Source of the DNA: a virus
IMG/VR virus record: IMGVR_UViG_3300031773_000053
Location: 1-21,019 of that record
DNA length: 21,019 bases
Reading direction: 5' to 3' (one strand)
Part shown: piece by piece, positions 1-21,019 of the stretch
Numbering within the stretch: the stretch's first letter is position 1
Layout: the number at the start of each line of letters is the position of its first letter
Position numbers and translations under genes: made by a program
The notes under the pieces: generated by a model
What the model was told of the DNA's origin: nothing
Seen by the model: only the letters and a program-made list of their open reading frames with translations
Databases searched by the model: none

Positions 1-118
1 CCCTTCCGTTTTTTTCCCCGCTTATGGCTGAAACCCCTATTTTTATAGTGTTATACGTAAGGGCATTTAAGCCCGTAGTAGTTTTTTTTAATGTGTACGG
101 AATTTTGGAGGCTACATA
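1..118 (+). other. Leader upstream of the packaging operon
   Basis: No gene is supported here. The stretch is AT-rich with several T runs. A short inverted repeat (GGGC at 61-64, GCCC at 71-74, 6-nt loop) is followed six bases later by a run of eight T at 82-89, so it could be a weak terminator of an upstream gene or leader structure. A good Shine-Dalgarno, GGAGG at 107-111, sits 7 nt before the first gene. ACGGA at 97-101 and the GGA of the Shine-Dalgarno form a possible CsrA-type double site. A packaging (cos or pac) site often lies next to the small terminase gene, but nothing in the bases proves one. Confidence 0.4.
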
Positions 119-571
119 ATGACTAGAGGACGTAAACGGATACCCGACGAGATTAAAAGACTGCGCGGTATTGATAAGAAGAACCCCCAGAGAATGAATT
201 ACGCATCGCCGAAGCCAGAGCGAAAAAAGCACAGGCGCCCAGCATGGATTAAAGATAAACATGCTATAGAGGCTTGGAAATGTTACGGAGAGCTGCTAGA
301 TAAGCTAGGCGTATTAACCACTACGGATAAAATGGCACTAGAGCAGCTAGCGGTAGCTTATGCCAACTGGCGGCGATACCAGACAATAAGCGAAGAAGAA
401 GGCTTAATAGTAGACGGTCGGCGTAACCCCGCAGACGTCGCTAGCCGTGACTGGTTTGACCGTACCCTAAAGATACTTGTAGAATTTGGGCTAACGCCAG
501 TTAGTAGAGGTAAAATAATAATAGACAAACCTAGCGACGCTGTTAAAGCCATTAACCCTAGAGAGCGATAA
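119..571 (+). CDS. terS: Phage terminase small subunit, P27 family
   Basis: Small terminase subunit, which recognises phage DNA and delivers it to the large subunit to start packaging. The 150-aa length and order match the P27 family: a basic N-terminus (TRGRKRIPDEIKRLRG, then a KKHRRPAW segment) followed by helices (about residues 50-125) with the typical pattern of an alpha-helical DNA-binding and oligomerisation domain, ending in a short tail. It is the first gene of the packaging/head operon, with GGAGG 7 nt upstream of the ATG. Its TAA overlaps the ATG of the large subunit (TAATG), so translation is probably coupled. P27-type systems often have an HNH nuclease nearby for cos cleavage; none is seen in this window. 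Family call is from pattern and position, and is fairly secure. Confidence 0.85.
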   Translation: MTRGRKRIPDEIKRLRGIDKKNPQRMNYASPKPERKKHRRPAWIKDKHAIEAWKCYGELLDKLGVLTTTDKMALEQLAVAYANWRRYQTISEEEGLIVDGRRNPADVASRDWFDRTLKILVEFGLTPVSRGKIIIDKPSDAVKAINPRER

Positions 572-2208
572 TGGTAGATAAGATTACTAAGCGATGGATA
601 GAAAACGCAGCAGACGAAAAAGCAGCGGCGGCGGGGTACTTTATAGATGAAGCGCGCGGCGCGCACGTCTGCGAGTTTATAGAAAAAAACTTGAGATTAT
701 ATGAGGGAGACTACGCAGGTAAGAAAGTATCCTTGATGGATTGGCAGGTTAATTTATTCTATCGTCTATTCGGCTGGGTTAAGTATTCAGACTTCTACAG
801 CCGTGACCTGCGCCGCTTCCGTATTGCGTCTTGCTGGCTTCCGAAGAAAAACGGTAAAAGCCCAGTAGGCGCTTTTGTCGGTTTATACCTACTGGCAGCA
901 GATGGCGAGCCGGGTAACCATGTATATAGCTGCGCGCGAGATTCTAAACAGGCGAGCATTGTACATAAAAATGCTAGAATGATGGTCGAACAGTCGCCAG
1001 CTCTAAACAAGCTATGCATGATTAATAATTCTACCGGCGTAATATCCTACGAGCCTACGCACTCAAACTATCAGATTGTCGCAGGCTCTAACTACCAGAG
1101 CCTAGAAGGTTTAAACGGTAGTTGTATAGTAGACGAAGTACACGTATTAGACAGCCGAACAGCCAGCGCTATAGAGCATGCAGGCATCAGCCGCAGCGAG
1201 TGGCTGCGCTTCGAGATTAGTACAGCGGGTAATAACCCTACGGGCTACGGTCACAAACAATGGGAGTACGGCGAGAAAGTAAACAGCGGAGAGATAGACG
1301 ATAACGAGTTTTTATTTATTAAGTATGCAGCAGATGAAAAGCTAACAGACGACGAACTACTAGACCCGAAGGTATGGCGCGCCGCTAATCCCTCTATGGG
1401 TACTATCATTAGCGAAGACGAATTTAGTAAGTCTTTACACAGAGCTAAGCGCAGCTTAACGGACTGGCAAAACTTCAAGATGTACCGCCTAAATATGTGG
1501 GCTACTTCTGAGGCTACGTGGTTACGTATAGAAGACTGGAAAGCCTGCAAAGTATCATTTACAGAAGACGACCTAGCCGGTAGAGAGTGCATACTAGGGC
1601 TAGACTTATCACGTACTAGAGATATGACAGCCGCAGTACTTGTTTTCACAGATGGAGACGAGTATACAATATTACCTTACTTTTTTTACCCAGAGACAGC
1701 GGCGAAGAATAACGACCATATAGCGCCTTTCTTACAATGGTCTAATGACGGATACCTAGAGCTGATACCGGGCGACGTAATAGACTACGCCTACGTAGAA
1801 AATCGTATTCTACAATTAGCCGAAAAGTATATAATAGGCGAGATAGTTTACGATAGAATGTATGCGGAAGATATTACAACGCGCCTAGAGAATGAGCTAG
1901 GCTGCTTACGTACTAGCTTCCCGCAGACTATTATGCATTTTGCTGGACCGACTGCTGAGTTTGAGCGCTTGGTATTGGCACAGAAGCTAAGACATAACGA
2001 TAACCCTATAATGAATTGGCAGGCTGCTAGCGCTTCCGTTAAAATAGACGTCAACAATAATAAAAGACCCGTTAAGCCGGGAAGTGAAAGCCAGCGTAAA
2101 ATTGACGGAATAGTAGCCGCTATCATGGGGTTAGGTCGTGCCATAGCGGAAGCAGAGCCAGAGGCTACCTACGATTACTACAACGATAACCCGATAGAGC
2201 TATTATGA
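571..2208 (+). CDS. terL: Phage terminase large subunit
   Basis: ATP-driven DNA packaging motor and nuclease acting at the portal. At 545 aa it is normal for the Terminase_1 family of HK97-like phages. The N-terminal ATPase has a deviant Walker A (LPKKNGKS, residues 90-97), as is usual in these proteins, a Walker B (CIVDEVH, 185-191) with the catalytic acidic pair, and a coupling-type segment near 217-223 (STAGNNP). The C-terminal RNase H-like nuclease shows acidic residues at the expected places: GLDLSRTRD (D345, D351), IVYDRMYAED (D428) and KIDGIVAAI (D512). The start overlaps the small subunit stop by one base and the stop overlaps the portal start as ATGA, which indicates strong operon coupling. 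No motif is missing, so it should be active. Confidence 0.95.
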   Translation: MVDKITKRWIENAADEKAAAAGYFIDEARGAHVCEFIEKNLRLYEGDYAGKKVSLMDWQVNLFYRLFGWVKYSDFYSRDLRRFRIASCWLPKKNGKSPVGAFVGLYLLAADGEPGNHVYSCARDSKQASIVHKNARMMVEQSPALNKLCMINNSTGVISYEPTHSNYQIVAGSNYQSLEGLNGSCIVDEVHVLDSRTASAIEHAGISRSEWLRFEISTAGNNPTGYGHKQWEYGEKVNSGEIDDNEFLFIKYAADEKLTDDELLDPKVWRAANPSMGTIISEDEFSKSLHRAKRSLTDWQNFKMYRLNMWATSEATWLRIEDWKACKVSFTEDDLAGRECILGLDLSRTRDMTAAVLVFTDGDEYTILPYFFYPETAAKNNDHIAPFLQWSNDGYLELIPGDVIDYAYVENRILQLAEKYIIGEIVYDRMYAEDITTRLENELGCLRTSFPQTIMHFAGPTAEFERLVLAQKLRHNDNPIMNWQAASASVKIDVNNNKRPVKPGSESQRKIDGIVAAIMGLGRAIAEAEPEATYDYYNDNPIELL

Positions 2209-3848
2209 GCGAGACTTATATAATTGGCGCAGGTATCGACGCTAGCCGCGCAATAGAAAACCCTAACATACCGCTAGGCAGCCCAGAAATATTTAACGAA
2301 GTCTTTAACACTAACATAAGCGGTACGGGTATTAGCGTTAGCCCAGAGCGCGCGCTAAGTATCGCCCCAGTCTTTCAGGCTGTAAACTTAATAAGCGGCG
2401 ACGTAGCGAAGCTACCGCTGAACGTATACCAGCGGCGCCCAGACTTAGGGAATAAAGGGCGCGCCGTCGCAGATAATCACGCAGCGCAGCAGCTTATCAA
2501 GTTTAGACCTAATGCGGAGATGAGCGCTTTTAAGTTTTGGCGGCGCTTAATGACCCACGCGCTACTATGGTCTAACGCATACGCGCTAATAGAGAGAGAC
2601 GACGCCGGGCGACCCGTTGCGCTTTTGCCACTATTACCAGATAGAACTAGCCCACAGCGAGCAGAAGACGGTAGCTTATTCTATGTATCAGAGATAGGCG
2701 GCGAGCTTCAAGGCTTCGCAGCTTCTAACATTCTACACATAGAACAGATTAGCGTATCAGGGCTGCAAGACTGCCAAGTAATCTACAAGGCGCGCGAGAG
2801 CTTCGCGCTAGCTATAGCCGCTGAGCAATTCGCTAGTAAGTACTTTTCTAATGGTGGGCGCATTGGCGGTATTCTGGAAATGCCAGCCGGTATGCAGAAA
2901 CAAGGCGCAGATAATCTAGAAGCGGGCTTTAGAAAAACATACGATAGCATAGACGCCAGCTTTAAGACGGTTATTTTAAGAGACGGCGCTAAGTTTCATC
3001 AAGCGCAGTTTACGCCAGAACAGACACAAATGACAGCGGCGCGTACCCAGCAAGTAAGAGAAGTAGCGCGCTGGTTCAATATACCGCCGCATAAGCTGGG
3101 AGACGATGCGCGAGCGTCTTACAATTCTCTAGAGCAGGAAAACAGAAGCTACCTTAACCATTGTCTAAGCGCGTGGCTAAAGACTATAGAAAGCGAATGT
3201 TACCTAAAACTACTAGCGCCGCTTGAACAAGAGGCTAACAGCCACTTTATAGAGTTTAACGTAGGCGCACTTATAGCAGCAGATATATCTACACAGTACC
3301 AGATATACAGAACAGGCATAGAAGCCGGGATACTATCGCCCGACGAAGTGCGCGCTATGCAAAACTTGAACCCGCGCACAGACGGGCTAGGCGGTAAGTA
3401 TCTACGACCGCTTAATATGGAGTATGCCGACTTCGAGCCGGAAGTAGTCGAAGCAGAGCGCGGGCTAGAAGAAAATAGCTATAAAGTATTAGACGCCAGC
3501 GTAGCGCGTTTTACTGGCTATCTATCCCGTAAGGTAATTAGAGAGGGTAACAAGAAAAACCTAGCGCGCTTTTTAACTTGGATAGAAAGTCACCTAGACG
3601 AAGAAAAGAAAAACCTAAGAGACGAAGTAAAAGACGCTATAGAGTTACTGGCGGCGATTACTGGCAAAGACGCAGCGGCGCTACAGGACAATCTAGCGCG
3701 GCATATATTCGGCTCTATGGGCGAGACTATAGAAGGCGTACTAACTACAACAGAAACAGAGCAGCGTAGCGCAGCTCTGAAAGCAGTACTTAAAGACTTT
3801 ACTAAAGATATTCTAGCGAGTTATCGCAGGGAGTTAGACAGTGAGTAA
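2205..3848 (+). CDS. Portal protein, HK97 type, with extended C-terminus
   Basis: Forms the dodecameric ring at the capsid vertex through which DNA passes. The region after about residue 45 has the typical HK97-type pattern: VFQAVNLISGDVAKLPLNVYQR, then LLPLLPDRTSP, ILHIEQISVSG, GGILEMP, FHQAQFTPEQTQM, and VAREVARWFNIPPHKLGD-like sequence close to residues 285-300, which is very characteristic. At 547 aa it is longer than the common 380-450 aa; the extra part is a C-terminal charged helical region (about residues 420-547: KKNLARFLTWIESHLDEEKK and following). Such extensions occur in some HK97-like portals and may act in scaffolding or cargo contact; that is inference. Starts with ATG overlapping the terL stop and ends overlapping the protease GTG. 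Confidence 0.92.
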   Translation: MSETYIIGAGIDASRAIENPNIPLGSPEIFNEVFNTNISGTGISVSPERALSIAPVFQAVNLISGDVAKLPLNVYQRRPDLGNKGRAVADNHAAQQLIKFRPNAEMSAFKFWRRLMTHALLWSNAYALIERDDAGRPVALLPLLPDRTSPQRAEDGSLFYVSEIGGELQGFAASNILHIEQISVSGLQDCQVIYKARESFALAIAAEQFASKYFSNGGRIGGILEMPAGMQKQGADNLEAGFRKTYDSIDASFKTVILRDGAKFHQAQFTPEQTQMTAARTQQVREVARWFNIPPHKLGDDARASYNSLEQENRSYLNHCLSAWLKTIESECYLKLLAPLEQEANSHFIEFNVGALIAADISTQYQIYRTGIEAGILSPDEVRAMQNLNPRTDGLGGKYLRPLNMEYADFEPEVVEAERGLEENSYKVLDASVARFTGYLSRKVIREGNKKNLARFLTWIESHLDEEKKNLRDEVKDAIELLAAITGKDAAALQDNLARHIFGSMGETIEGVLTTTETEQRSAALKAVLKDFTKDILASYRRELDSE

Positions 3849-4473
3849 GATATTTCCTAATGAAAAGCCGGTTACAGTAGAGACACGCGCAGATGGTAAG
3901 CAAATGGTAACGGGCTACGCCGCCGTCTTTCATCGTAGCGACGATAGCGGTACGCAGTACCAGCTCATGGACAATTACTACGAGCGTATACAGCCGGGCG
4001 CTTTTGATAGAGCGCTAGCAGAGATGCAAGACGTAAGAGCGCTATTTAACCATGATGCTAATATAGTTTTGGGTCGCACAAAATCTAATACGCTGCGGCT
4101 TACGACAGACTCTACAGGGCTACGCTACGAAGTAGACTTGCCAGAGACACAGCAAGCCGCAGACTTAGCTAAAAGCATTACGCGCGGCGACGTCTCCGGC
4201 TCTAGCTTCGCCTTTAGTGTAACCGCAGAGGGGCAAGAGATAGAGCGCAGCGACGGGCAGACATATAGAAACATAACAGACGCTAACTTATTTGATGTAT
4301 CGGTAGTAACCTACCCAGCATACGAAAGCGCTACAACTGGGCTTCGCAGTAGTGAAAATCTAGAAGAAGCTAAAGCCGCTTTATCTAAGTGGGAAGCCGA
4401 AGAAAACAGAGAGCGCGACGCAGTAAAGAAAAGATTAGCACAAATTAAACTTGACGCTAACGAAGATTTATAG
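3841..4473 (+). CDS. Prohead protease, HK97 (U35) family
   Basis: Serine protease that matures the procapsid by cutting the delta domain from the major capsid protein and then itself. The 210-aa length fits. Landmarks are GYAAVFH (25-31), ERIQPGAFDRAL (48-59), the catalytic His context LFNHD (H71), the Ser context GDVSGSSFAF (116-125; candidate nucleophile in SGSS) and DLFDVSVVTYPAYESA-like sequence near 150-163. Start is GTG at 3841, overlapping the portal stop by 8 nt, with GGGAG about 8 nt upstream; no better ATG exists before the conserved region. The C-terminal 40 residues are charged and helical. Followed by a 148-nt gap before the capsid gene, the largest in the head module. Confidence 0.92.
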   Translation: MSKIFPNEKPVTVETRADGKQMVTGYAAVFHRSDDSGTQYQLMDNYYERIQPGAFDRALAEMQDVRALFNHDANIVLGRTKSNTLRLTTDSTGLRYEVDLPETQQAADLAKSITRGDVSGSSFAFSVTAEGQEIERSDGQTYRNITDANLFDVSVVTYPAYESATTGLRSSENLEEAKAALSKWEAEENRERDAVKKRLAQIKLDANEDL

Positions 4474-4621
4474 ATAATTCTCAATAGTCGAAGCGCTTAG
4501 CTTCGCTACCACATTCTAAAGCGAACCCGTACAGGCTGTAGCTATAGCGTATTACACGTATATAGGTATGGCTTTTTTTTGGCGCATACCTTAGAAAATT
4601 CTATTTTTAAGGACTTATACA
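4474..4621 (+). promoter_or_regulatory. Structured leader of the major capsid gene
   Basis: A 148-nt non-coding gap before the most highly expressed gene of the module. It holds a perfect 6-bp hairpin with a 5-nt loop (CGAAGC 4489-4494, GCTTCG 4500-4505), and a second inverted repeat GGTATG 4565-4570 / CATACC 4585-4590 whose loop contains eight T. The capsid Shine-Dalgarno AAGGA is at 4609-4613, 8 nt before the ATG. An AT-rich segment around 4545-4570 could hold a -10 element but I cannot pick one confidently. Likely roles are a capsid promoter, a transcript-processing or stability element, or a partial terminator; the sequence alone does not decide. Confidence 0.45.
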
Positions 4622-5941
4622 ATGGCAGTAGATAAAGTACAAGAGCTGCAAGAGCAGCGAAACGGCTTAGCCGCAGAAATTAAAGAGCTAGGTAACACAC
4701 AGGAAAGCTGGACAGACGAACAGCGCGCGCGCTGGGAAGATGTGAACGCAGAGTACGATAGCGTACTAGAGCGACAGCAGGCAGAAAAAGAAAAGCTAGA
4801 CGTCTCCGCACGTCTGGACACTATCAGCGAAGAAAGAGAGCGCAGCGAATGGCAGGCGAAGCGCAATAATGAGCCTACGCCAATTAATGACGATACGCGC
4901 TCTAAGGCTTTACTGGCATGGTGTCAGCACCAGTCCGGCATGGAAGTAGGCAACGAACTTAACGAAGCAGCTACCCGCTGCGGAGTAGACCCGCGCCGCA
5001 GCTTCTTTGAGATTAATTTACGCGCTGCTGAGACGTTTAATAATCGTGGCTTCGGCAGCGAATATCGAGCGCAGAGTACGAGCAGCACCGAAGGCGGATA
5101 CACTATTCCAGAGGGCTTTAGTAATGAGCTAGAGCGAGCTTTGCTGGCTTTTGGTGGACCGCGCCGTGTAAGTCGTATTTTGCGTACTGCTTCTGGTAAT
5201 ACTATTCCGTTTCCAACCGTAAACGACTCTGGAAACAAGGGCGCAATTTTAGCCGAAAATACGCAAGTGTCAGAGCAAGATGTTGTATATGCTAGTATAA
5301 ATTTATCGGCGTATAAATATTCTAGCCGCCTTCTGCGCGTTTCGGCTGAGCTAATGCAGGATTCTGCATTTAATCTAGGCGCGGAATTAGGCAGCATGAT
5401 AGGCGAACGTCTAGGGCGTATTACCGCTGAGCATTTTACTACAGGTACAGGCTCTAGCCAGCCCGAAGGTATCGTAACTGGTTCTACTTTAGGCGTAACG
5501 GCAGCAAGTGCTACCGCTATTACTATGGACGAGCTAATTGACCTTCTAGCTAGTATCGACCCAGCCTATCAGGATTCGCCTAGCTGTGGATTTATGATGC
5601 ACAACAGCGTAAAATCTGCGGTGCGTAAGCTGAAAGATTCTAATAACCAGTATCTATGGCAGCCCGGTTTAACTTCCGACGCGCCAGATGTGCTACTTGG
5701 CAAGCCCGTAGTAGTTAATCAAGAGATGGCTAGCAGTATCGCAGCGAGCGCTAAGACGGTACTCTGCGGCGATTTTAGTAAGTTCTTAATTCGAGATTGT
5801 GGGTCTATACGACTCGCCCGTATGGACGAGCGCTATCGTGATTACGACCAGACAGGCTTCGTCGCCTTCTCCCGTCATGATTCGGTATTATTAGACGCTG
5901 GTACTAATCCTGTTAAGCACTTAGTACAGGCAGCTAGCTAA
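4622..5941 (+). CDS. Major capsid protein, HK97 fold
   Basis: Main shell protein of the head. The 439-aa precursor has the classic arrangement: an N-terminal helical, charged delta (scaffold) domain of about 100 residues (VDKVQELQEQRNGLAAEIKE onward, rich in E/K/Q, predicted coiled coil), a linker, and then the folded domain starting around GGYTIPEGFSNEL (about residues 158-170). Downstream are typical family segments such as GNTIPFPTVND, the E-loop region with ILAENTQVSEQD, the spine-helix type sequence VSAELMQDSAFNLGAELGSMIGERLGR, EGIVTG, and VLLGKPVVVNQEM. The protease cleavage site should lie between about residues 100 and 150, probably not far before the GGYTIPEG segment. ATG is supported by AAGGA at the proper distance. 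Confidence 0.95.
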   Translation: MAVDKVQELQEQRNGLAAEIKELGNTQESWTDEQRARWEDVNAEYDSVLERQQAEKEKLDVSARLDTISEERERSEWQAKRNNEPTPINDDTRSKALLAWCQHQSGMEVGNELNEAATRCGVDPRRSFFEINLRAAETFNNRGFGSEYRAQSTSSTEGGYTIPEGFSNELERALLAFGGPRRVSRILRTASGNTIPFPTVNDSGNKGAILAENTQVSEQDVVYASINLSAYKYSSRLLRVSAELMQDSAFNLGAELGSMIGERLGRITAEHFTTGTGSSQPEGIVTGSTLGVTAASATAITMDELIDLLASIDPAYQDSPSCGFMMHNSVKSAVRKLKDSNNQYLWQPGLTSDAPDVLLGKPVVVNQEMASSIAASAKTVLCGDFSKFLIRDCGSIRLARMDERYRDYDQTGFVAFSRHDSVLLDAGTNPVKHLVQAAS

Positions 5942-5958
5942 TTACTAAAGGGGAAAAA

Positions 5959-6781: not shown

Positions 6782-7089
6782 GGCACAGAGTAGCCTTACA
6801 AAATAATACAGGTACAGCAGACAGCGCCGGGCAAGTGTCGGAAAGTTGGACTACATACAGTACAGTCTATGGCGAAGTTATAGACACTGGCGGCGTAGAG
6901 AAGGTGAGAGGACAGCAAGTAGACGCAACGATAAGCGCGCTAGTACGCATACGCTACCCAGCCTCTGGCACGTTTCCTACAGCAGAGCATAGGGTAAGCT
7001 GGGATAGTCGCATCTTTAATATCGAAACCGTACAGCGAAAAGACACGCACGAGCGCGAGCTATGGCTATTATGTCGGGAGGCTGTATAA
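6760..7089 (+). CDS. Head-tail adaptor (head closure) protein
   Basis: A 109-aa protein of the phage head-tail joining family (SPP1 gp16 / HK97 gp7 type), which closes the head after packaging. Visible family features are the start AGKLRHRVALQNNTGTADSAG (reading: small basic start, 'RV.LQ'), then ESWTTYSTVYGEV (about residues 28-40), and the late beta strand part RVSWDSRIFNIETVQRKDTHERELWLLC (about 78-106). The first 22 nt lie within the connector gene. The stop is directly followed by the next ATG (TAAATG). Confidence is high from combined sequence and order. Confidence 0.85.
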   Translation: MVRAGKLRHRVALQNNTGTADSAGQVSESWTTYSTVYGEVIDTGGVEKVRGQQVDATISALVRIRYPASGTFPTAEHRVSWDSRIFNIETVQRKDTHERELWLLCREAV

Positions 7090-7626: not shown

Positions 7627-7628
7627 GC

Positions 7629-8051: not shown

Positions 8052-8062
8052 GAGTTTTTGAG

Positions 8063-11932: not shown

Positions 11933-11956
11933 GCATTTTTTTAGAAAGTATAGACA

Positions 11957-12748: not shown

Positions 12749-12752
12749 TCAA

Positions 12753-14095: not shown

Positions 14096-14096
14096 T

Positions 14097-15089
14097 ATGC
14101 GGTGCATATGGGAAACAAGCGAAGCGGGCGTAGTCTGTATTAATTGTGGACACAAGAAAAAGCGCCCTAGCTATCGTAACTGCGCACTAAAGAAAGGGCT
14201 CGGCGATACCATACAGCGCCTAACTTCCGCGCTAAATATCCCTACCTGCGGCGGCTGTAGGTCTAGGCAAAGTAAGCTAAACTCTGCGACGGCTACGCCA
14301 GCTTTCAAAAATGCGCGCCTTATCCAGACCGTAGAGCTAGTACATAAGGCTATTAAATTTTGCGCTGAAGTACCGCCAGAGATAGACGCTATATGTGCTA
14401 TTCCGCGCTCTGGTATGATACCCGCTAGCGTGATGGCGACCCAGCTACACCTACCTCTATATAGTTTACATAAAGGGTATGTAACTAATGTGGGCGCTGG
14501 GCAGCGCTTCAAGGCTACGCCAGAGCCTACCCGCTTATTATTTGTAGACGACACGGTAGCCAGCGGCGCAGCCATGAAAAAGCTAGAAGCCTTTAGAGGT
14601 GTTACCGCTGCTATTTATGTTAATCCGCGCGCGGAGAATCTACCGGATTTACAATGTAGTGAGCTAGAGCTACCCCACTTACTAGAATGGAACTTGTTCA
14701 ATAGTGGCTATGTTAGCCGTATGGCTTTTGACTTCGACGGCGTGCTATGCCATGACATGCCATACAATAAACCATTAGAGACGGCGCAGCCTAGATATCT
14801 AGCAAGACGCGCAGAGCTACCGGCGATTATCACGGGTAGACTGGAGAAAGACAGGGCGATAACTGAGAGCTGGCTACAGAGACACGGCATAAAATGTAAG
14901 CGGCTTATAATGTTTAATGGTACAGATTCGGACAGACAGAAGCCGCGCGCTATTAGTGATTATAAAGCGCGAGAATTTAGCAAGTTAGAATTAGATTGGT
15001 TTGTAGAGAGCTGCGCTATTCAGGCGAGCGAGATAGCAGAGCGTAGCGGGGCATGGGTAATATGTACAACTAATGGAGAGGTTTACTGA
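14097..15089 (+). CDS. Cys-cluster + phosphoribosyltransferase + HAD fusion
   Basis: A 330-aa three-part protein. Residues 1-62 hold six Cys (C3, C14, C17, C29, C51, C54) around GLGDTIQRLTSALNIP, a likely zinc-binding module. Residues about 75-200 form a type I phosphoribosyltransferase: AICAIPRSGMIPA (98-110) and the PRPP loop LLFVDDTVASGAAM (147-160), with both acidic residues intact. Residues 208-330 form a HAD-type domain: motif I DFDGVLCHD (212-220), motif II TGR (246-248), probable motif III lysine at K282 or K290, and a C-terminal motif IV-like part near DWFVES (300-305). Substrate is unknown; nucleotide or nucleobase salvage, or removal of a phosphoribosyl product, is possible. It lies between structural and lysis-type genes, not with replication. 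Confidence 0.75.
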   Translation: MRCIWETSEAGVVCINCGHKKKRPSYRNCALKKGLGDTIQRLTSALNIPTCGGCRSRQSKLNSATATPAFKNARLIQTVELVHKAIKFCAEVPPEIDAICAIPRSGMIPASVMATQLHLPLYSLHKGYVTNVGAGQRFKATPEPTRLLFVDDTVASGAAMKKLEAFRGVTAAIYVNPRAENLPDLQCSELELPHLLEWNLFNSGYVSRMAFDFDGVLCHDMPYNKPLETAQPRYLARRAELPAIITGRLEKDRAITESWLQRHGIKCKRLIMFNGTDSDRQKPRAISDYKAREFSKLELDWFVESCAIQASEIAERSGAWVICTTNGEVY

Positions 15090-15340
15090 TGGGGCGTAAA
15101 CGTAGAGAGCGTAATAGCGAAGGTAAGTTAGTTATGGTCGAGGATAAAAAGACAGAGAGACGAGAGGGTAAAGCTGATATAATTTTGGCTAAAGCAGAGC
15201 TAAAGACTAGTAAGGGCTACGCGCGTAAATGGTTATTTATGTTAATAGCAATTTTGCTAGGGGCTTACCTGCTATTATCTAGCGGCGCAGGTGGTGGCGC
15301 GTTAGATATGATTAAGCAATTTTTACCGGGAGGCGAGTAA
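15089..15340 (+). CDS. Small membrane protein, possible holin-like
   Basis: An 83-aa protein with a very basic and charged N-terminal half (MGRKRRERNS, KKTERREGK) and one clear membrane helix at about residues 48-64 (WLFMLIAILLGAYLLLS), followed by a Gly-rich hinge and short amphipathic end (ALDMIKQFLPGGE). It overlaps the previous stop as TGATG and is directly followed by the next gene. A small one-TM protein in a run of three membrane proteins after the tail genes is typical of a holin/antiholin/spanin-associated block. No enzymatic function is visible; exact role unknown. Confidence 0.6.
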   Translation: MGRKRRERNSEGKLVMVEDKKTERREGKADIILAKAELKTSKGYARKWLFMLIAILLGAYLLLSSGAGGGALDMIKQFLPGGE

Positions 15341-15544
15341 ATGATAAAAGAGATATTAGCCGCAGCAAAATCTAAGCGCACAGTAATAGCTGTGCTTACT
15401 GCATTTTTTGCGGTAGTCAATGCACAGCTTAGCGAGCCGCTAGTAGATGAAGAATTATTAAACAAGCTGGTAGTAATTATCACGGGTCTAGTAATCGGCG
15501 ATAGTCTGCGACCCGTCGTAAAGAAAGAAGACGCGCCACAGTGA
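15341..15544 (+). CDS. Holin-like small membrane protein
   Basis: A 67-aa protein with two hydrophobic segments, about residues 14-29 (TVIAVLTAFFAVVNAQ) and 42-53 (KLVVIITGLVIG), and a charged C-terminus (KKEDAPQ). The amphipathic start MIKEILAAAKSKRT plus the phrase 'KRTVIAVLTAFFAVVN' resembles small class II-type phage holins or the membrane proteins that accompany them. It starts right after its neighbour's stop and its TGA overlaps the GTG of the next gene (GTGA). Holin assignment is inferred from size, topology and location. Confidence 0.6.
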   Translation: MIKEILAAAKSKRTVIAVLTAFFAVVNAQLSEPLVDEELLNKLVVIITGLVIGDSLRPVVKKEDAPQ

Positions 15545-15792
15545 CAGAGCTACAAGAGTTGCGCGACGAAGTAAAGCGGATAGACGTAAAGGTAGAGCGC
15601 ATACTATGCCAGCTTGAGCCTATTAGCAATCTCTACGCCGGTAACGGTAAGAAGTCTCTAGAGGCGCGGGTAAGTGTTGCGGAGAATGACATAGCCGACA
15701 CTAAAGACTCTACGCGCTGGGCTATGCGTACCGCAGTAACAGCTATTCTAGGCGCGCTATCTTCTGTAGTGCTTTATCTACTGAAAAAGTAA
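15541..15792 (+). CDS. Coiled-coil, tail-anchored membrane protein (XhlA-like)
   Basis: An 83-aa protein with GTG start overlapping the previous stop by 4 nt. Residues 1-25 (ELQELRDEVKRIDVKVERI) and about 38-57 are heptad-patterned, and residues 60-81 (WAMRTAVTAILGALSSVVLYLL) form a C-terminal membrane anchor ending in KK. This is the organisation of XhlA / haemolysin-XhlA-type phage proteins that work beside holins in host lysis. It closes the rightward structural operon, with a likely terminator hairpin overlapping its stop codon. Confidence 0.68.
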   Translation: MTELQELRDEVKRIDVKVERILCQLEPISNLYAGNGKKSLEARVSVAENDIADTKDSTRWAMRTAVTAILGALSSVVLYLLKK

Positions 15793-15814
15793 GTCTAGAT
15801 ACTTTCTCTTTTTT
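15783..15814 (+). terminator. Probable rho-independent terminator of the late operon
   Basis: A 9-bp stem with one A-C mismatch, GAAAAAGTA (15783-15791) and TACTTTCTC (15800-15808), has an 8-nt loop and is followed directly by six T (15809-15814); another run of six T occurs at 15819-15824. The stem is AT-rich, so it may be leaky. It includes the stop codon of the last late gene, a common economy in phages, and the next gene starts more than 100 nt later. Confidence 0.6.
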
Positions 15815-15919
15815 CTGGTTTTTTGTTTCGCTGGGCTTGTGTTTATCCGATGGTATTAATATATTAATAGAGTAAGAAGTAAACGAAGTTAAAACCTTAA
15901 AAGAAAGATAGTATCCAAG
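15793..15919 (+). promoter_or_regulatory. Intergenic control region with 16-bp palindrome
   Basis: The 127-nt gap between late and replication operons is the clearest place for a promoter. It contains the perfect 16-bp palindrome TATTAATATATTAATA at 15854-15869, which is as expected for a dimeric repressor site and also offers TATATT/TAATAT -10-like hexamers. No convincing -35 is visible at 16-18 nt upstream. Downstream is an A-rich leader up to the start at 15920. GATACT (15798-15803) and AGTATC (15910-15915) could pair across the region, but this is short. Confidence 0.5.
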
Positions 15920-16528
15920 ATGGCTACAGAAGAAAAAGAAGCAGATAGCGCGCGCGTTATTATTCCGCAATACGTGATAAAGTGCGCAGATAGATACGCG
16001 CAAGATAAAGGCACAGATAGGACACACCCAGCAGAGCGACCGCGCGAGCCGTGCGACATCTTCGCAGATAGTATCTGCTGTTGGGCTGTATCTAAATGGC
16101 TAACGTCTCTTAATATCTGGCATGAGACGACCTACGTAGACGACTGCGACAGCGACATAATGCTAGAGTGTCACGAAGGCATAAAAGGCTATGGCGTCTG
16201 CGCTGAGTGGCTTAATCCCGGTAACATAACTAACCGAATTACTAAAGGTCTATGTATTAGCCACTATCGCACACAGACAGAAGAAGTAGGCGGCTGGATA
16301 GCCTGCGGCTATTGGGATAGCGTAGTTACTATCTATGGTATCGTACCGAAAGGTACAGACTTTACCGGCTGGGAGTTATTACCTAACTTTACGCCGCTTA
16401 TTTATAACTACCCAGCGCGGCAGGCGTGGGCTGTTATAGACGCCGCATCTATAGAGCTAATGGCAGTGCGCACTAAAGAGCCGCAAGAGGTTTTTAGCGG
16501 GCTATTCGTAGAAGGTGAGGTAGCATAA
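15920..16528 (+). CDS. Unknown protein, first gene of the replication operon
   Basis: A 202-aa protein that I do not recognise. After a charged start, DIFADSICCWAVSKWLTSLNIWHETTYVDDCDSDIMLECHEGIKGYGVCAEWLNPGN covers about residues 43-99. A helix followed by D-(D/S)-D-I and then a strand ending in an acidic residue (GYGVCAEW) is loosely like the core of PD-(D/E)XK-fold phage proteins, but the catalytic Lys is not evident. Later Trp/Gly-rich strands (GGWIACGYWDSVVTIYGIVP) follow. The start is weakly supported (A/G-rich AAGAAAGA about 11 nt upstream). The stop overlaps the CsrA gene start as TAATG, so the two are made together. Function open. Confidence 0.65.
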   Translation: MATEEKEADSARVIIPQYVIKCADRYAQDKGTDRTHPAERPREPCDIFADSICCWAVSKWLTSLNIWHETTYVDDCDSDIMLECHEGIKGYGVCAEWLNPGNITNRITKGLCISHYRTQTEEVGGWIACGYWDSVVTIYGIVPKGTDFTGWELLPNFTPLIYNYPARQAWAVIDAASIELMAVRTKEPQEVFSGLFVEGEVA

Positions 16529-16710
16529 TGAGCTTAAACCTAACCCGCAAAAAATCGCAGATAATACACATAGGCGAAGACATAACTATAAAGATTATCA
16601 AGCTACGCGCGTCTAGTGTACTTGTAGGCGTAGACGCGCCAGCAGATATAAGAATTGTAAGAGGCGAACTACGCCAGAAAGATATAGAAAATGCGAGAGC
16701 TAAAAGCTAA
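16528..16710 (+). CDS. csrA: CsrA-family RNA-binding regulator
   Basis: A 60-aa homologue of CsrA/RsmA, the dimeric protein that binds GGA motifs in mRNA leaders and blocks or helps translation. The alignment to bacterial CsrA is visible along the length: LTRK (5-8; typical 'LTRK/R' start), IIHIGEDITIKIIKLRASSVLVGVDAPADIRIVRGEL (12-48), matching the 'I.IG..I.I.vl.i.g..V.iGi.AP..v.v.R.El' pattern. The two RNA-contacting Arg positions seem to be kept (R7 and R45). One extra residue is present near the N-terminus. A GGTGAGG ribosome site precedes it; it overlaps both neighbours. Phage-encoded CsrA proteins are known but uncommon. It could reprogramme host mRNA or time the phage's own late genes. 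Confidence 0.85.
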   Translation: MSLNLTRKKSQIIHIGEDITIKIIKLRASSVLVGVDAPADIRIVRGELRQKDIENARAKS

Positions 16711-17560
16711 GCCCCCAGTAGGGAAAGATAAACGCGCACAGATTATACTAAGCGGAGAGGCTGGCGTAGGTAAAACGTACTTTGCGCTAGACTTCCCAGA
16801 CTGCTACTACATAGACATAGAGGGAAGCGCTGAGCGCGACCACTACGCTAAGAAGTTAGCCGCTGGCGGTGGCGTCTATTTTGGGCAGTCTGAGGGTAGC
16901 CAAGATTACTACACGGTAATAGAGGAAATACAGACACTAGCTACGATAGAGCATAACTATAAAACGGTAGTTATAGATAGCTTTTCTAAGCTCTATTCTA
17001 TAGCCGCCTCTATCGCAGAGGAAAAAGTAGGTAACGATTTTGGGCGCGATAAGAAAGAGGCTAATAGACCTACGCGCAGGCTCATACGCTGGCTAGACCG
17101 CCTAGACATGAACGTAGTTTATATATGTCACAGCGCCGACAAGTGGGGGAAAGACGCAGACGGACAGCAGAGCGTAGTAGACACGACTTTCGACGGCATG
17201 AAAAAGCTAGACTACGAGCTGGACTTATGGCTAGAGATTTTAGAAGAAGGGCGCAGCCGTAAAGCGAGAGTACGTAAGAGCCGCCTAGAAGGCTTCGTAA
17301 AGGGCGAAAAATTCGACCTTATCTACGCAGACTTCGCAGAGCGATACGGCAACAAGATAGACGCTAAGCGGGAGATACTGCACGAACTACCAGCGGCGGA
17401 AGATGTAGCGAAGCTAAAAGAGCTTTTGACTACTGCGGGTATCGGGTCTAGCACTACAGACGGCTGGCTAGAAAAAGCTGGCGTAGAAAAGCTAGAGCTA
17501 ATACCAGCGGAAGACTTCGCTAAATGTATTAGCTACGCACAGGGGCGACTAAATGCGTAG
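16691..17560 (+). CDS. Sak4-like RecA-fold ATPase (recombinase)
   Basis: A 289-aa AAA/RecA-fold protein. Walker A is GEAGVGKT (residues 22-29), followed by the short 'FALDFPDCYYIDIEG' typical of phage Sak4/AAA_24 proteins (about 31-45); Walker B is TVVIDSF (92-98); RRLIRWLDRLDMNVVYICHS (about 128-147) is the sensor-type strand. The later VDTTFDGMKKLDYELDLWLEILEE and RKARVRKSRL also fit. Sak4 proteins anneal or exchange single strands and work with an SSB, here encoded 174 nt downstream. The C-terminal 80 residues are helical and acidic. The start overlaps csrA by 20 nt; the first Met is only 21 residues before Walker A, so no shorter start is likely. Confidence 0.85.
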   Translation: MRELKAKPPVGKDKRAQIILSGEAGVGKTYFALDFPDCYYIDIEGSAERDHYAKKLAAGGGVYFGQSEGSQDYYTVIEEIQTLATIEHNYKTVVIDSFSKLYSIAASIAEEKVGNDFGRDKKEANRPTRRLIRWLDRLDMNVVYICHSADKWGKDADGQQSVVDTTFDGMKKLDYELDLWLEILEEGRSRKARVRKSRLEGFVKGEKFDLIYADFAERYGNKIDAKREILHELPAAEDVAKLKELLTTAGIGSSTTDGWLEKAGVEKLELIPAEDFAKCISYAQGRLNA

Positions 17561-17801
17561 CAGTAGAAAACTAATAGACGCTTGTAAAGCCTCTACACAG
17601 ATATACGAGCTTAGCGCAGGGCTTCACGGCTTAACACTACAGCAGATACGACTAATAGTATGGCGTACCGCTGGAGTAAAAATAGGACTTTTAACATTAA
17701 CTAGAATCTGTAATTTACATAGGATAAGAATAAAATGGACTTCGACCCAAATGACGCAGGCAATAGAGTACTCGGCGATGGCTGCTACGACTTCGAGATA
17801 G
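17553..17801 (+). CDS. Small HTH-like protein
   Basis: An 82-aa ORF that starts 8 nt inside the upstream gene (ATGCGTAG) and whose last 67 nt overlap the DUF669 gene in another frame. The central part LTLQQIRLIVWRTAGVKIGLLTLTRICNLHRIRIK (residues about 27-61) has the spacing of a helix-turn-helix with a basic end. The non-overlapping 60 residues fill what would otherwise be a 174-nt gap, which supports reality. The C-terminal 22 residues are constrained by the overlap. It could be a small DNA-binding regulator. Moderately sure that it is expressed, unsure of function. Confidence 0.5.
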   Translation: MRSSRKLIDACKASTQIYELSAGLHGLTLQQIRLIVWRTAGVKIGLLTLTRICNLHRIRIKWTSTQMTQAIEYSAMAATTSR

Positions 17802-18187
17802 TCGCTAGCGAAGACTGTACAAGCCGCCTAGAAGGACACGAAGGCGAGCAGCAGGTAAAGATAGTGCTAAAGGTGTACCACGATGGCGGCAATATGCTAC
17901 TTAATCAATGGCTAAGCCCTTCTAAAATGTGGAAGGTGAAACAGTTTGCGCACTGTACCGGGCTGGTTAAGCAGTTTGAAGACGGGCGCATAGTCGCCGC
18001 AGACTGCGAAGGTAAAGCCGGTAAAGTCGAGATAAAGAGCTACCATGATAGTAAGGACATTAAGCGCAATAGCGTATATAGATACTTAGAGAGCGAGACT
18101 AGCGACGCAGAAGTTAGAGAGCAGCTTAAAGAGTTTAAGGCTACGGCTACTTCACAGTCTAACATGCCAGACGACCCACCATTTTAA
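17735..18187 (+). CDS. DUF669-type single-strand DNA-binding protein
   Basis: A 150-aa protein matching the phage DUF669 family, which takes the place of SSB next to Sak4/Sak recombinases. It has DGCYDFEIVASEDCTSR (about residues 15-31), QQVKIVLKVYHDGGNMLLNQWL (39-60) and GKAGKVEIKSYHDSKDIKRNSVYRY (about 91-115), the beta-rich OB-like part with the typical 'G..g.v.i......g..r..v..y'. It ends SNMPDDPPF, an acidic tail with terminal aromatic residue like the DDDIPF of bacterial SSB, which recruits repair and replication partners. AGGA with a 10-nt spacing supports the ATG. Confidence 0.85.
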   Translation: MDFDPNDAGNRVLGDGCYDFEIVASEDCTSRLEGHEGEQQVKIVLKVYHDGGNMLLNQWLSPSKMWKVKQFAHCTGLVKQFEDGRIVAADCEGKAGKVEIKSYHDSKDIKRNSVYRYLESETSDAEVREQLKEFKATATSQSNMPDDPPF

Positions 18188-18198
18188 GAGGTATAGTA

Positions 18199-18942
18199 AT
18201 GCAGATTATGTTATCAAATAACACAGGTAAAAAAGTACGCGCATTGTGGGCTAAATATCCTACCCGCTTCGCTTGTCTTTTCGGTATAGATGGCTGGCGT
18301 AATGTAGATATGCCATATGCGCTAGATAATGGTCGCTATGCTGCGACGACAAAAGGTAAAGACTGGGAGGTAGATAAGTTTAGGCTGTTATTGGATAAGG
18401 CGGCAGCTCATAAAAAGCCGCCTATATTTGTGGTGGTTCCCGATGTAGTAGCAGATAGGGAGGCGACTTTAGCAGAATGGGATACTTGGACAGACGGCGC
18501 GCACTGGTTCAAGCGGTATAAGTTTAAGCTGGCTTTTGTTGTCCAAGACGGCATGGCGCCGGAAGATGTACCTCCTAGCGCTGAATGGGTATTTATTGGC
18601 GGTAGTCCAAAATGGAAACGGGCTAACATATGGCGCTTTTGTAATAAATTCGAGAATGTACACGTAGGCGGTGTAAATTCGCCTCGTACTTTATGGGTAT
18701 GTCATAAAAGCGGCGCTAAAAGCATAGACGGTACGGGCTGGTTTAGAGGCGACGAGAGACAGTGGCGCGGCTTGCTACAGTATTTATACCGTAGCGAAAA
18801 TGCGCTAGGCGAGAAACAGGGGCGGCTTTTTGATTTATACGAAGCAGACGCTATGGGCGCTAGATTCTATCAAAAGTTTATAGAAGAACTTAAAGAGGAT
18901 TGCATAGAAGGGTATAGCGGGGAAGGCATTACTTTAAGATGA
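18199..18942 (+). CDS. TGT/DpdA-like 7-deazaguanine transglycosylase
   Basis: A 247-aa protein with features of tRNA-guanine transglycosylase-like enzymes that exchange guanine for a 7-deazaguanine base; DpdA members act on DNA. In order: ALDNGRY (41-47), VVVPDVVADREATL (78-91), FVVQDGM (113-119; like the VQGG substrate site of TGT), FIGGS (132-136; like the following GG), HVGGVNSPRTL (155-165) and GAKSIDGTGWFRGD (172-185), in which D177 is the likely nucleophile by comparison with the late 'S/D-x-D' of TGT. It is shorter than TGT and lacks the usual Cys3-His zinc site, as expected for small phage members. No preQ0 pathway gene is in the window, so a base precursor would come from the host or other phage genes. 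AAGAGG precedes the start. Confidence 0.65.
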   Translation: MQIMLSNNTGKKVRALWAKYPTRFACLFGIDGWRNVDMPYALDNGRYAATTKGKDWEVDKFRLLLDKAAAHKKPPIFVVVPDVVADREATLAEWDTWTDGAHWFKRYKFKLAFVVQDGMAPEDVPPSAEWVFIGGSPKWKRANIWRFCNKFENVHVGGVNSPRTLWVCHKSGAKSIDGTGWFRGDERQWRGLLQYLYRSENALGEKQGRLFDLYEADAMGARFYQKFIEELKEDCIEGYSGEGITLR

Positions 18943-19499
18943 TACTACTACAGAAGCAAAAGCTAGTACTGGTGACACCGCCGCATACCGCTAGCGGCGC
19001 ACTACATAAAATACTATGTAGCCCAGAGCATGGCGGTATTTGGGTTAATGGCGAGAATCCAGACGGCGGGATAGACCACCACTACGGGCGAGTACATGAC
19101 GGCTGGATACACGACGGCTACAAGGTAATACTAGTCATCAGAGAGCCGCTGGCGCGGGCTTACGGATTGTATAAACATTATCTATGGTGGCTAGAGAAGA
19201 AAGGGCTAGACCATGATATACCTTTTAATAGCTATCTAAAGTCGCCGCCTAACCACTACATGCACACAGAGACACAGCTACAATTTTACATACGCAATAA
19301 TCTAGACGACTGCGACACGGAAGTAGTAAGCACGACTAACATAGACGACGTTTTAGACTTCGACTACGGGCTAAACATATTACCAGCCTTCGACCATACA
19401 GCGCTACTATGCGACCTAGATAGAGAAAGTGTAAAGATACCATACGGGGAGAGCTGGCAAGACGAGTACAACTTTTGGAAATACTACGACGCTGTTTAG
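18939..19499 (+). CDS. Sulfotransferase-like protein (copy 1)
   Basis: A 186-aa protein with sulfotransferase-fold landmarks: a first strand and PAPS-loop, LVLVTPPHTASGALHKIL (residues 9-26, equivalent to 'P.T.ST.l'), a 3'-phosphate-binding segment VILVIREPLARAYGLYKHY (63-81; 'v.ivRdPl.R..S.y.hy'), and a C-terminal SWQDEYNFW (172-180). It is short for the family (usually 230-300), so some acceptor-side parts may be reduced. It resembles the protein encoded from 20541, also in the glycine/aspartate part (GENPDGGIDHHYGR). ATGA overlap couples it to the transglycosylase. The acceptor is unknown: glycan, protein or small molecule. Tandem terminators follow. Confidence 0.65.
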   Translation: MILLQKQKLVLVTPPHTASGALHKILCSPEHGGIWVNGENPDGGIDHHYGRVHDGWIHDGYKVILVIREPLARAYGLYKHYLWWLEKKGLDHDIPFNSYLKSPPNHYMHTETQLQFYIRNNLDDCDTEVVSTTNIDDVLDFDYGLNILPAFDHTALLCDLDRESVKIPYGESWQDEYNFWKYYDAV

Positions 19500-19511
19500 T
19501 GTCGGTATATG

Positions 19512-19547
19512 CCTAGCGGTATTCTCTCGATACGCTAGGTAGTTTTT
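19512..19547 (+). terminator. Rho-independent terminator, first of a tandem pair
   Basis: CCTAGCGGTAT (19512-19522) pairs with ATACGCTAGG (19530-19539) over 10 bp with one bulged G and a 7-nt loop. Five T follow at 19543-19547. It lies 12 nt after the stop of the sulfotransferase-like gene. The stem contains the CTAGC word that is also in the second hairpin. Confidence 0.72.
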
Positions 19548-19551
19548 GGGT

Positions 19552-19584
19552 AGCCCGTCTAGCTAGTGGCTAGGCGGGCTTTTT
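19552..19584 (+). terminator. Strong rho-independent terminator, second of a tandem pair
   Basis: AGCCCGTCTAGC (19552-19563) and GCTAGGCGGGCT (19569-19580) form a 12-bp stem with a single T-G wobble and a 5-nt loop, and five T follow (19580-19584). This is the most canonical terminator in the window. Only 12 nt remain before the initiator ATG at 19597, with the ribosome site GGGGAAG between. Confidence 0.88.
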
Positions 19585-19596
19585 ACAGGGGAAGTT

Positions 19597-20388
19597 ATGA
19601 AGGGATACATAAAGTTACACAGGTCGATAATAGATAGCGCAGTATTTACAGACGCTAACCTACTAAAGACATGGATATGGTTACTTGGGCGCGCAGTCTA
19701 TAAGCCGGTAAAACTGTATACGGCTAACCTTACGCTAGACGTTGGGCAGTTTGCCACTAGCTACAGAGTAGCCGCTAGAGACTTAGAGACGTCTACAGGT
19801 ACTGTAAAAAGACACTTTGATAAGTTAATTCATATGGATATGATAACGGTAGAAAGCGGTACACTCTTTACAGTGGTTACAGTCTGTAATTATAAGGTAT
19901 ATCAGCATGGCGAAGAAAAAAGCGAGACAGCAGTAGAGACGCCAGTAGAGACACCAGTAAAGACACGAGTAGAGACGCCAGTAGATACAAGAAGAAGAAG
20001 TAAAGAATATAAAGAAAGAAAGAATAACTACCCCACTTTTTCTACTAAGAGAAAAGAGAGCTTAGCGAGATGGATAGACTATAAGCGCGAGACGGGTAAC
20101 TACACAGAGATGCAGGTAGAGGCTTTTGTAAATTCAGTAGCACATTTACCAGACGGTACACTAGAATTAAAGATAACCAGAGCCATAGCTAACGGCTGGA
20201 AGGGTCTAGGCAACTACGAAAAAGAAGCAGCGCCGCTAGCGCCGAAAGTGCTAACGGCTGAACAGGTAGATAATGCTATAGCTCTGCGTGAGTTATGGCG
20301 CGAGCTGGACGAACTAAAAGCCAGAGGCGAAGGTATGAGCGACGAAGCAGAAAATATAAAGAAAGAGATGGCACACTATGAGAGTTAG
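19597..20388 (+). CDS. Replication initiator / DnaD-like replisome organiser
   Basis: A 263-aa protein with the modular form of phage replication initiators. The N-terminal winged-helix region (YIKLHRSIIDSAVFTDANLLKTWIWLLGRA, 4-33; VGQFATSYRVAARDLETSTGTVKRHFDKLIHMDMITVE, about 49-86) is the typical start of DnaD-like and 'helix-turn-helix' replication proteins. A linker of repeated VETPV/VKTRV/VETPV units (about 113-132) and a basic purine-coded stretch follow. The C-terminal domain (LARWIDYKRETGNYTEMQVEAFVN, then LELKITRAIANGWKGLGNYEKE, about 151-210) matches the 'a...GW.g' DnaB-loader-recruiting tail of such proteins. GGGGAAG supports the ATG. The linker DNA forms iterons. Confidence 0.8.
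   Translation: MKGYIKLHRSIIDSAVFTDANLLKTWIWLLGRAVYKPVKLYTANLTLDVGQFATSYRVAARDLETSTGTVKRHFDKLIHMDMITVESGTLFTVVTVCNYKVYQHGEEKSETAVETPVETPVKTRVETPVDTRRRSKEYKERKNNYPTFSTKRKESLARWIDYKRETGNYTEMQVEAFVNSVAHLPDGTLELKITRAIANGWKGLGNYEKEAAPLAPKVLTAEQVDNAIALRELWRELDELKARGEGMSDEAENIKKEMAHYES
19933..19992 (+). repeat. Five 12-bp direct repeats (iterons)
   Basis: Consecutive units: GTAGAGACGCCA (19933-19944), GTAGAGACACCA (19945-19956), GTAAAGACACGA (19957-19968), GTAGAGACGCCA (19969-19980) and the more diverged GTAGATACAAGA (19981-19992). The repeat is a multiple of three so the reading frame is kept (VETP-type repeats). Followed by a purine-only/AT-rich stretch. Confidence 0.8.
19933..20031 (+). other. 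Candidate replication origin within the initiator gene
   Basis: The five iterons are followed from about 19989 to 20031 by an almost pure A/G, AT-rich tract (GAAGAAGAAG, TAAAGAATATAAAG, AAAGAAAGAATAA). In lambda the O-binding iterons and an adjacent AT-rich, strand-asymmetric unwinding region lie inside gene O in the same order. The arrangement is seen directly; origin function is inferred. Confidence 0.55.
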
Positions 20389-20584
20389 ATATATTACAGA
20401 GGATAGACGACGGCTACGAGTGCTTACCAATGACGTAGAGCAGCTATCGAACATACATAGACAGATAGTTAAAGAAGGATTTATACAGGTGGGCTTAGTG
20501 CGGTTTTTAATTCATTTACTAACAGCCGGAAAGCGCGGTTATGATAGTACTAGACACAGAAAAACTAATAATATTAACCCCTAA
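20378..20584 (+). CDS. Small basic protein of unknown function
   Basis: A 68-aa ORF whose start lies 11 nt inside the initiator gene and whose end overlaps the second sulfotransferase-like gene by 44 nt. Sequence is basic and mostly helical (RVLTNDVEQLSNIHRQIVKEGFIQVGLVRFLIHLL, about residues 13-47). AAAGAGATGG about 8 nt upstream may serve as ribosome site. It fills the gap between two coding regions, but the heavy overlap lowers confidence. No family recognised. Confidence 0.5.
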   Translation: MRVRYITEDRRRLRVLTNDVEQLSNIHRQIVKEGFIQVGLVRFLIHLLTAGKRGYDSTRHRKTNNINP

Positions 20585-21019
20585 CGGCGTAGGGTCTACG
20601 GCATTACATGTAGAGCTATGTAATAGGGCTAATAACTATTGGGTAATGGGCGATAATGAAACAGGGGGAATAGATAGCTACATAACTCGAATACCGACGC
20701 GCTGGAAAAGCTACGAGCGCGCCGTAATGGTTCGTAACCCATATACCAGAATAGCCGCTATGCACAGCGCCTATAATGATAAGAGGCTAGCTAAAAATTT
20801 AGAGCCTATCACTTTAGGACATTACGTAGATAAAATACCGCTAATGCGTACTCCGGTTATTAGCAAATGGGCAGAAAATGTGGCGCCGTATCACATAATA
20901 CATTACGAGAGCATAGCGAAAGACATACGGAAAATAACCGGCTTACGGATTCGCTGCGCGACAGAGCAGCGGGCTAACTGGCGTAAAGACTTCGAGAGGC
21001 TAACACCCCAGCGGCTAAG
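20541..21019 (+). CDS. Sulfotransferase-like protein (copy 2, cut by window end)
   Basis: An open frame from ATG 20541 to the window edge (159 complete codons, no stop reached). It parallels the product of 18939-19499: EKLIILTPNGVGSTALHVEL (residues 7-26; PAPS-loop, closer to the canonical G-S-T than copy 1), WVMGDNETGGIDSYITR (about 34-50), and a 3'-phosphate segment AVMVRNPYTRIAAMHSAYN (about 60-78). Near the end NWRKDFERLTPQRL (about 146-159) resembles the C-terminal part of sulfotransferases that contacts the cofactor. GGAAAG lies about 10 nt upstream. The missing C-terminus is probably short if its length is as in copy 1. Confidence 0.62.
   Translation, partial: MIVLDTEKLIILTPNGVGSTALHVELCNRANNYWVMGDNETGGIDSYITRIPTRWKSYERAVMVRNPYTRIAAMHSAYNDKRLAKNLEPITLGHYVDKIPLMRTPVISKWAENVAPYHIIHYESIAKDIRKITGLRIRCATEQRANWRKDFERLTPQRL

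Follow-up and report, generated by a model that had tools for sequence, protein, structure and literature searches.

Absence of many short recognition-type words from the genome of an uncultured tailed phage

Complete or almost complete elimination of restriction sites has been reported for about one-tenth of viral genomes, mainly those of non-temperate phages (Rusinov et al. 2018, PMC6286503), and a 2025 review restates this avoidance result (PMC12707154). In Staphylococcus phage K the complete loss of GATC has been ascribed to Sau3A restriction (PMC6532042), and among coliphages a scarcity of EcoRI or EcoRV sites goes with resistance to the system concerned (PMC8594841). All seven isolates of the HF1 group of haloviruses lack GATC and CTAG, and no genome of the group contains any of 21 six-base palindromes, from which the authors infer diverse host defences (PMC7230728). 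Here we examine the virus record IMGVR_UViG_3300031773_000053, all 21,019 bases of which we call the window, from a virus known solely from metagenome contigs, whose DNA lacks GATC, GGCC, CCWGG and a number of further short words.

Like the cases of Rusinov et al., the window belongs to a double-stranded DNA phage that has lost short, mostly palindromic Type II words. Unlike them, it lacks many word families together, asymmetric ones included, and has lost one word only where another does not overlap it; as no host was found, the words cannot be matched to enzymes. Phage K presents one word and a known host, whereas here many words are missing from a phage for which no host was found. The HF1 group consists of archaeal myoviruses, about 70-78 kb in size, that lack a different set of words (CTAG, for one, occurs 169 times in the window). 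These comparisons suggest that the window phage belongs to the known site-avoidance kind, its less usual traits being the asymmetric words, the missing code-forced amino acid pairs and the overlap-dependent loss of CGCG. Our literature search was a narrow, open-access one, and cannot show whether conditional loss or loss of code-forced dipeptides is already in print. In our judgment the best explanation, and very probably the right one, is avoidance of restriction sites directed against many systems, mainly of Type II, by a phage that presumably carries no modification of its own covering these words.

Absent words in the window and word counts in its relatives

Exact counting over the 21,019 bp gave zero occurrences of each of GATC, GGCC, CCAGG and CCTGG, as the initial annotation had claimed from the letters alone, and the effect is stronger than was claimed there. 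For the other GC-rich palindromes that it called common, the counts are 264 GCGC and 53 CCGG. The expectations it gave, about 80 for each 4-mer and about 40 for CCWGG, were too high, a dinucleotide model predicting 32 GATC, 58 GGCC and about 17 CCWGG. Two further contigs, each with one mismatch, represent the same virus: L001 covers window 1-8745 and adds 2,042 bp upstream, and L116 (the same as L092) covers window 8619-21019 and adds 547 bp downstream. All four words are likewise absent from both extensions.

Our main null exchanges a codon for a synonymous one elsewhere only if the neighbouring bases agree, so that proteins, codon counts and dinucleotide counts all stay unchanged. Over 200 shuffles of this type GATC averaged 25.9 (minimum 17), GGCC 34.0 (minimum 23) and CCWGG 17.4 (minimum 9). 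When the match is extended to two bases on either side, a stricter condition, 10.4 GATC and 18.3 GGCC are still expected. Thus, the words are missing beyond anything that codon usage and dinucleotides produce, and neither refutation envisaged in the initial annotation holds: the counts are far from ordinary, and codon and dinucleotide bias does not give the absence. The words GATC (0/25.9, observed/expected), GGCC (0/34.0), CCWGG (0/17.4), GGAGC (0/25.3) and CCNNGG (0/19.9) all lie under the avoidance threshold of Rusinov et al. (less than 0.1 of expectation where more than 15 are expected), with expectations taken here from the shuffles and not from the formula of that paper.

The same shuffles revealed additional missing words. 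Zero counts were obtained for GGAGC/GCTCC and CCNNGG, as given above, and for GGATG/CATCC (0/9.7), CTCTTC/GAAGAG (0/9.5) and CAGCTG (0/10.0); near-zero counts for AMGCKT (1/31.1), GDGCHC (1/16.9) and GGGAC (1/9.1), and for the asymmetric words CCGAG (2/22.2), CCTCG (2/15.5) and AGGAG (2/18.1). A stepwise search through 6,912 patterns, in which positions already explained were masked, kept 12: HCGCGD, GGCC, GATC, GCTCC, AMGCKT, CCAGG, CCGAG, GDGCHC, CTKMAG, CCGNTC, CAGCTG and CATCC. A greedy search with free degeneracy had returned uninterpretable mixtures; most candidates here were therefore palindromic patterns, plain words or words in which a single internal position was N. Nine of the patterns reach log10 p <= -5 and three (CCGNTC, CAGCTG and CATCC) are near the threshold (log10 p -4.1 to -3.9), and they partly overlap in meaning, as CTKMAG may be just CTTAAG plus CTGCAG. 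Under the same candidate rules 61 patterns fall at log10 p < -3.7 in the window, versus none in each of 10 shuffled genomes. The suggestion that several restriction systems had acted is therefore supported as regards depletion and was too low as regards number, with restriction as the agent something that we infer. None of the results supports the methyl-dependent alternative that the annotation also raised, although none is a direct test of it.

Four relatives, G002, G003, G013 and G014 (capsid identity to the window 80-82%), have GATC at 72/60, 69/66, 38/34 and 42/34, GGCC at 113/83, 134/106, 63/54 and 64/52, and CCWGG at 55/32, 95/53, 42/22 and 41/24, in that order. Counts of the three words are also normal, by direct count, in L002-L005 and L008, whose terminases are 82-83% identical. 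The loss is thus particular to the lineage of the window, the words being at normal frequency in close relatives whose G+C content is similar. GDGCHC is scarce in the same four genomes (1/16, 2/20, 1/11 and 1/8). Other relatives have lost other words, such as GGNCC in G005 (0/25.2) and CCWGG in G010 (0/12), and the more distant L065 and L066 are depleted of ACGT (3/32 and 0/37) and GGWCC (0/23 and 0/21); which words are missing thus differs from one related phage to the next.

Multi-word loss is not unique to the window, an idea that we considered and rejected: in 36 of 105 loci of at least 8 kb, one or more 4- or 5-base palindromic words stand below 0.1 of expectation, these 36 taking in the window itself, three pieces of its virus and, as separate entries, several pieces of single contigs. 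Three phage-like loci from Bacteroidales metagenome-assembled genomes (MAGs), L150, L153 and L156, miss more such words than the window does. L153 and L156 (Alistipes MAG contigs) are purged of ACGT, CCGG, CTAG, GGCC, GGNCC and CCSGG, and L150 (a Bacteroidales MAG contig) of CGCG, CTAG, GCGC, CCWGG and GGNCC, with CCGG surviving almost only as TCCGG/CCGGA. They resemble the window in their multi-word purge, and differ from it in their word lists and in a capsid identity of only 33-41%. As a separate matter, unusual synonymous recoding of the window was rejected, since at identical residues the codon identity of the window to eight relatives is 0.37-0.42, and that of other distant pairs 0.35-0.43.

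Code-forced dipeptides and the selecting agent

For some amino acid pairs the genetic code makes one of the missing words obligatory: WP is always TGGCCN (containing GGCC), PW is CCNTGG (a CCNNGG word) and WM is TGGATG (containing GGATG). None of the three occurs in the window, where 4.2, 4.2 and 2.4 are expected from composition, and scaling by the relatives' own rates gives an expectation of about nine forced dipeptides. Summed over 12 related contigs, some of them close to one another, WP, PW and WM occur 47, 25 and 17 times (expected about 42, 42 and 22). Alignments locate positions where the window has departed from such a pair (Table 1). Two forced pairs are invariant among the aligned relatives, PW in the terminase and WP in the adaptor, and the window has altered both, compared with 73 of 713 invariant pairs overall (Fisher p 0.010), and with G002, G003 or G005 as the focus neither of two forced pairs is changed. 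WP is also absent from the GGCC-poor L153 and L156 (GGCC 0 and 1; WP 0 versus 2.8 and 2.7 expected; PW 4 and 3), which fits the forced-pair reading, these two loci being perhaps not independent of each other. The absence of code-forced dipeptides indicates that selection acts on the DNA words themselves.

Table 1. Coordinates of the features discussed, in window positions
Feature	Position	Strand	Basis or remark
Absent words GATC, GGCC, CCWGG, CCNNGG, GGAGC/GCTCC, GGATG/CATCC, CTCTTC/GAAGAG, and CGCG without overlapping GCGC	1..21019		Counts versus shuffles
CGCG sites (128), each overlapped by GCGC; first starts at 164, last at 20957	164..20960		Site counts
Terminase large subunit gene	571..2208	+	Pfam TerL_nuclease 8.4e-40; PHROG 9 3.8e-133
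Terminase residues 316-317, TW; PW (forces CCNTGG) in 10/10 aligned relatives	1516..1521	+	Alignment
Major capsid protein gene	4622..5941	+	Pfam Phage_capsid 1e-59
Capsid residues 196-197, PF, then P; PWP (PW and WP forced) in G002, G003 and G005; position not invariant across relatives	5207..5212	+	Alignment
Head-tail adaptor gene	6170..6781	+	PHROG 442 1.8e-30; Pfam Phage_connect_1 5.2e-12
Adaptor residues 124-125, WA; WP (forces GGCC) in 12/12 aligned relatives	6539..6544	+	Alignment
Gap without a methyltransferase gene where G003 has a D12-like one (frame 15145-15732)	20389..20540		152 bp between window genes

We propose that selection has stripped the recognition words of many host restriction systems from the phage DNA, a sequence with no site being one that is not cut, and that the purge proceeded mostly through synonymous change and, where the code leaves no choice (WP, PW, WM), through amino acid change. 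One may also consider that codon usage and neighbour-dependent mutation bias alone make the words rare. The window does have an odd genome signature, with strong use of NTA codons and an over-representation of TA (rho 1.48, versus about 1.0 in the G002/G003 group of relatives and 1.29-1.44 in pieces of G004 and G005), for which the missing words alone are an insufficient explanation. However, the nulls preserve codon usage and all dinucleotides and left no depleted pattern in ten shuffled genomes, and G004 and G005 share the high TA yet have GATC at 42/43 and 58/71; bias is thus rejected by the nulls as the cause for the main words and we find it barely credible. Palindromes might also be avoided in general, for instance because they form hairpins in DNA or RNA. 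This would agree with the overall scarcity of six-base palindromes (278 versus 405 expected, 31 of 64 being absent), but it would not spare TAGCTA (28/26.4), GCTAGC (24/24.7), AGCGCT (29/26.6), GCGCGC (36/24.9) and TACGTA (11/12.1), and would not remove the asymmetric GGAGC; because such palindromes stand at expected counts we reject this explanation too as highly improbable. Some words might instead be read by non-classical systems, such as methyl-dependent nucleases, mismatch-repair nicking at GATC or phosphorothioate-type systems, and GATC and CCWGG are indeed the Dam and Dcm words as well. Moreover, methylated GATC is the reported target of an Mrr enzyme from haloarchaea (PMC7230728). Nevertheless, a separate cause would be needed for GGCC, GGAGC, CCNNGG, GGATG and CGCG, and modification-dependent enzymes are described as weakly avoided (PMC6286503), which leaves such systems unlikely as the general explanation.

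We hold it very probable that restriction enzymes are the selecting agent and that the phage has no modification of its own covering the words, and that high confidence is a joint one. Several observations nevertheless weigh against this reading. No host, enzyme or methylome was found, and we know of no enzyme that could be named for the asymmetric missing words GGAGC, CCGAG, CCTCG and AGGAG. PW is below its composition expectation in the relatives as well (25 versus about 42), and the control for changed pairs is not clean, as two of four forced pairs are changed when G007, G008, G010 or G011 is the focus. Profiles for C5, D12 and N6/N4 methyltransferases (PF00145, PF02086 and PF01555) had no match in the window or in its two sister contigs (G001 and G012), in line with a phage that does not modify these words. 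Among relatives, C5-type genes occur in G005, G011 and G018 (of 20 records) and N6/N4-type genes in G006 and G010 (of 15). Yet the D12 profile search of 20 records returned nothing over the cut-off and so missed the D12-like gene of G003 (24.5 bits in Pfam as a trimmed protein), which means that such searches do not prove that a methyltransferase is absent, and the part of the genome that is missing, about 2 kb or less as judged from relatives of 25 kb, could hold one. Finally, avoidance has been found to be nearly restricted to orthodox Type II sites (PMC6286503).

If avoidance of restriction is indeed the cause, the genome is clean enough to serve as an inventory of the words under attack in its hosts, and relatives with similar proteins and different missing words offer a natural experiment on the pace at which such a list changes.

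Loss of CGCG outside GCGC overlaps

CGCG is lost from the window only conditionally. All nine flank classes of CGCG that lack a GCGC overlap are empty, so that unshielded sites stand at 0/39.3 (minimum 29 in 100 shuffles) and overlapped sites at 128/90.7; under the null with two flanking bases the expectations are 21.4 (minimum 13) and 119.2, respectively. The same lean, in weaker form, is seen in G003 (20/51.3 unshielded, 56/51.8 overlapped), G013 (10/27.0 and 29/27.4) and G014 (8/31.0 and 39/35.2), and is not clear in G002 (38/49.9 and 42/43.7). Both kinds are lost in G004 (2/10.2 and 4/6.6) and G005 (1/17.8 and 6/11.4), the unshielded more so, and in G006-G011 unshielded sites range from 26/33.3 to 55/55.0, overlapped ones being often the fewer. 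When 25 sequences were scanned with 16 palindromic cores, only the window CGCG case and one CCGG case in L150 were flagged; G003 was scanned there as halves, which fell below the strict cut, and G013 and G014 were left out.

A possible explanation is that CGCG would be cut as well, and that GCGC, if methylated on the phage DNA, would shield the CGCG sites that overlap it, limiting the purge to unshielded ones. The survival pattern would then record a second modification, complete in the window phage and partial in three of four sister phages, a tentative proposal to which we give somewhat less than even weight and which stands apart from the confidence placed in site avoidance as such. By analogy, Dam methylation overlapping TCGCGATC blocks NruI (PMC2890505), so that there too a modified word protects an overlapping site of another enzyme, although that block is an in vitro effect whereas here protection is suggested by which genome sites survive. 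Two results speak against cross-protection: GGAGC sites overlapped by GCGC are not spared (0 versus 3.2 expected), and no C5 methyltransferase profile, as might supply a GCGC methylase, was found in the available sequence of the virus. For GGAGC, it may be that a different enzyme need not be blocked by GCGC methylation.

Alternatively, a single enzyme could recognise HCGCGD itself, with no GCGC methylation involved. This predicts a logically identical pattern, namely the nine empty flank classes, and the unspared GGAGC agrees with it; on the other hand, rescue by either flank that completes GCGC is what an overlapping modified word gives, and to our knowledge no enzyme has HCGCGD as its recognition word. 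Plain CGCG avoidance does exist among related phages, as L065 and L066 avoid it in both contexts (11/38.3 and 7/31.7; 8/32.5 and 6/31.4), which likewise tells against a dedicated HCGCGD enzyme; we regard such an enzyme as rather doubtful, if quite conceivable. Should shielding by methylated GCGC be the true cause, the sequence of an uncultured phage could reveal methylation in addition to restriction, phage genomes would record steady methylation besides host cutting, and overlapping methylation would be a natural route round restriction, beside amino acid changes at code-forced sites. In that case the lack of WP and PW would be a sign that even conserved structural proteins feel the pressure of restriction.

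Host searches and gene content

Spacer-type searches of 392, 398 and 395 genomes found no spacer, with two candidates scored per genome in most rows and no positive control. The sole match in the 392 Planctomycetota genomes is of 41 bp (window 16543-16583, within the csrA-like gene), and the 398- and 395-genome searches gave nothing at 1e-5. The genome of L123 has a 43 bp match to window 5827-5869, within the capsid gene. Among bacterial genomes the capsid is matched best by a MAG contig of Planctomycetaceae (47% identity), but since the other 46 loci come from many phyla, Planctomycetaceae is a weak host lead.

The window covers the greater part of the genome of a double-stranded DNA tailed phage whose head module is of HK97 type. 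Its gene order is of the usual HK97 kind (terminase small and large subunits, portal, protease, capsid, head-tail connectors, tail chaperones and tape measure), and it also has genes for a holin-like protein, a Sak4-like annealing protein, a DnaD-like helicase loader and a CsrA-family protein. Two exact-pattern scans for the missing part of the genome yielded no contigs beyond those already in the set. No integrase or lysogeny repressor surfaced in family scans of the larger open frames, which did not specifically examine lifestyle and covered an incomplete genome, and PADLOC families had no match among ten proteins tried.

The presence of a CsrA-family regulator gene on a phage (window 16528-16710, Pfam CsrA 9.9e-15) is shared with G003, whose counterpart scores 1.4e-16. 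At window 14097-15089 lies a gene for a 330-residue protein, 73% identical to that of G003, for which Pfam gives no match and PHROG only weak ones (polynucleotide kinase, 2.7e-05). Immediately upstream of the terminase genes, L001 carries an HNH gene (1619-1987) and, on the opposite strand, a calcineurin-like phosphoesterase gene (19-909, minus strand; PHROG 'DNA repair exonuclease', 4.2e-18). In G003 (L103/L104), the frame at 18296-19420 encodes 374 residues and appears, by eye only, to be of radical-SAM type, with a cysteine-rich stretch, CNLHCWTC.

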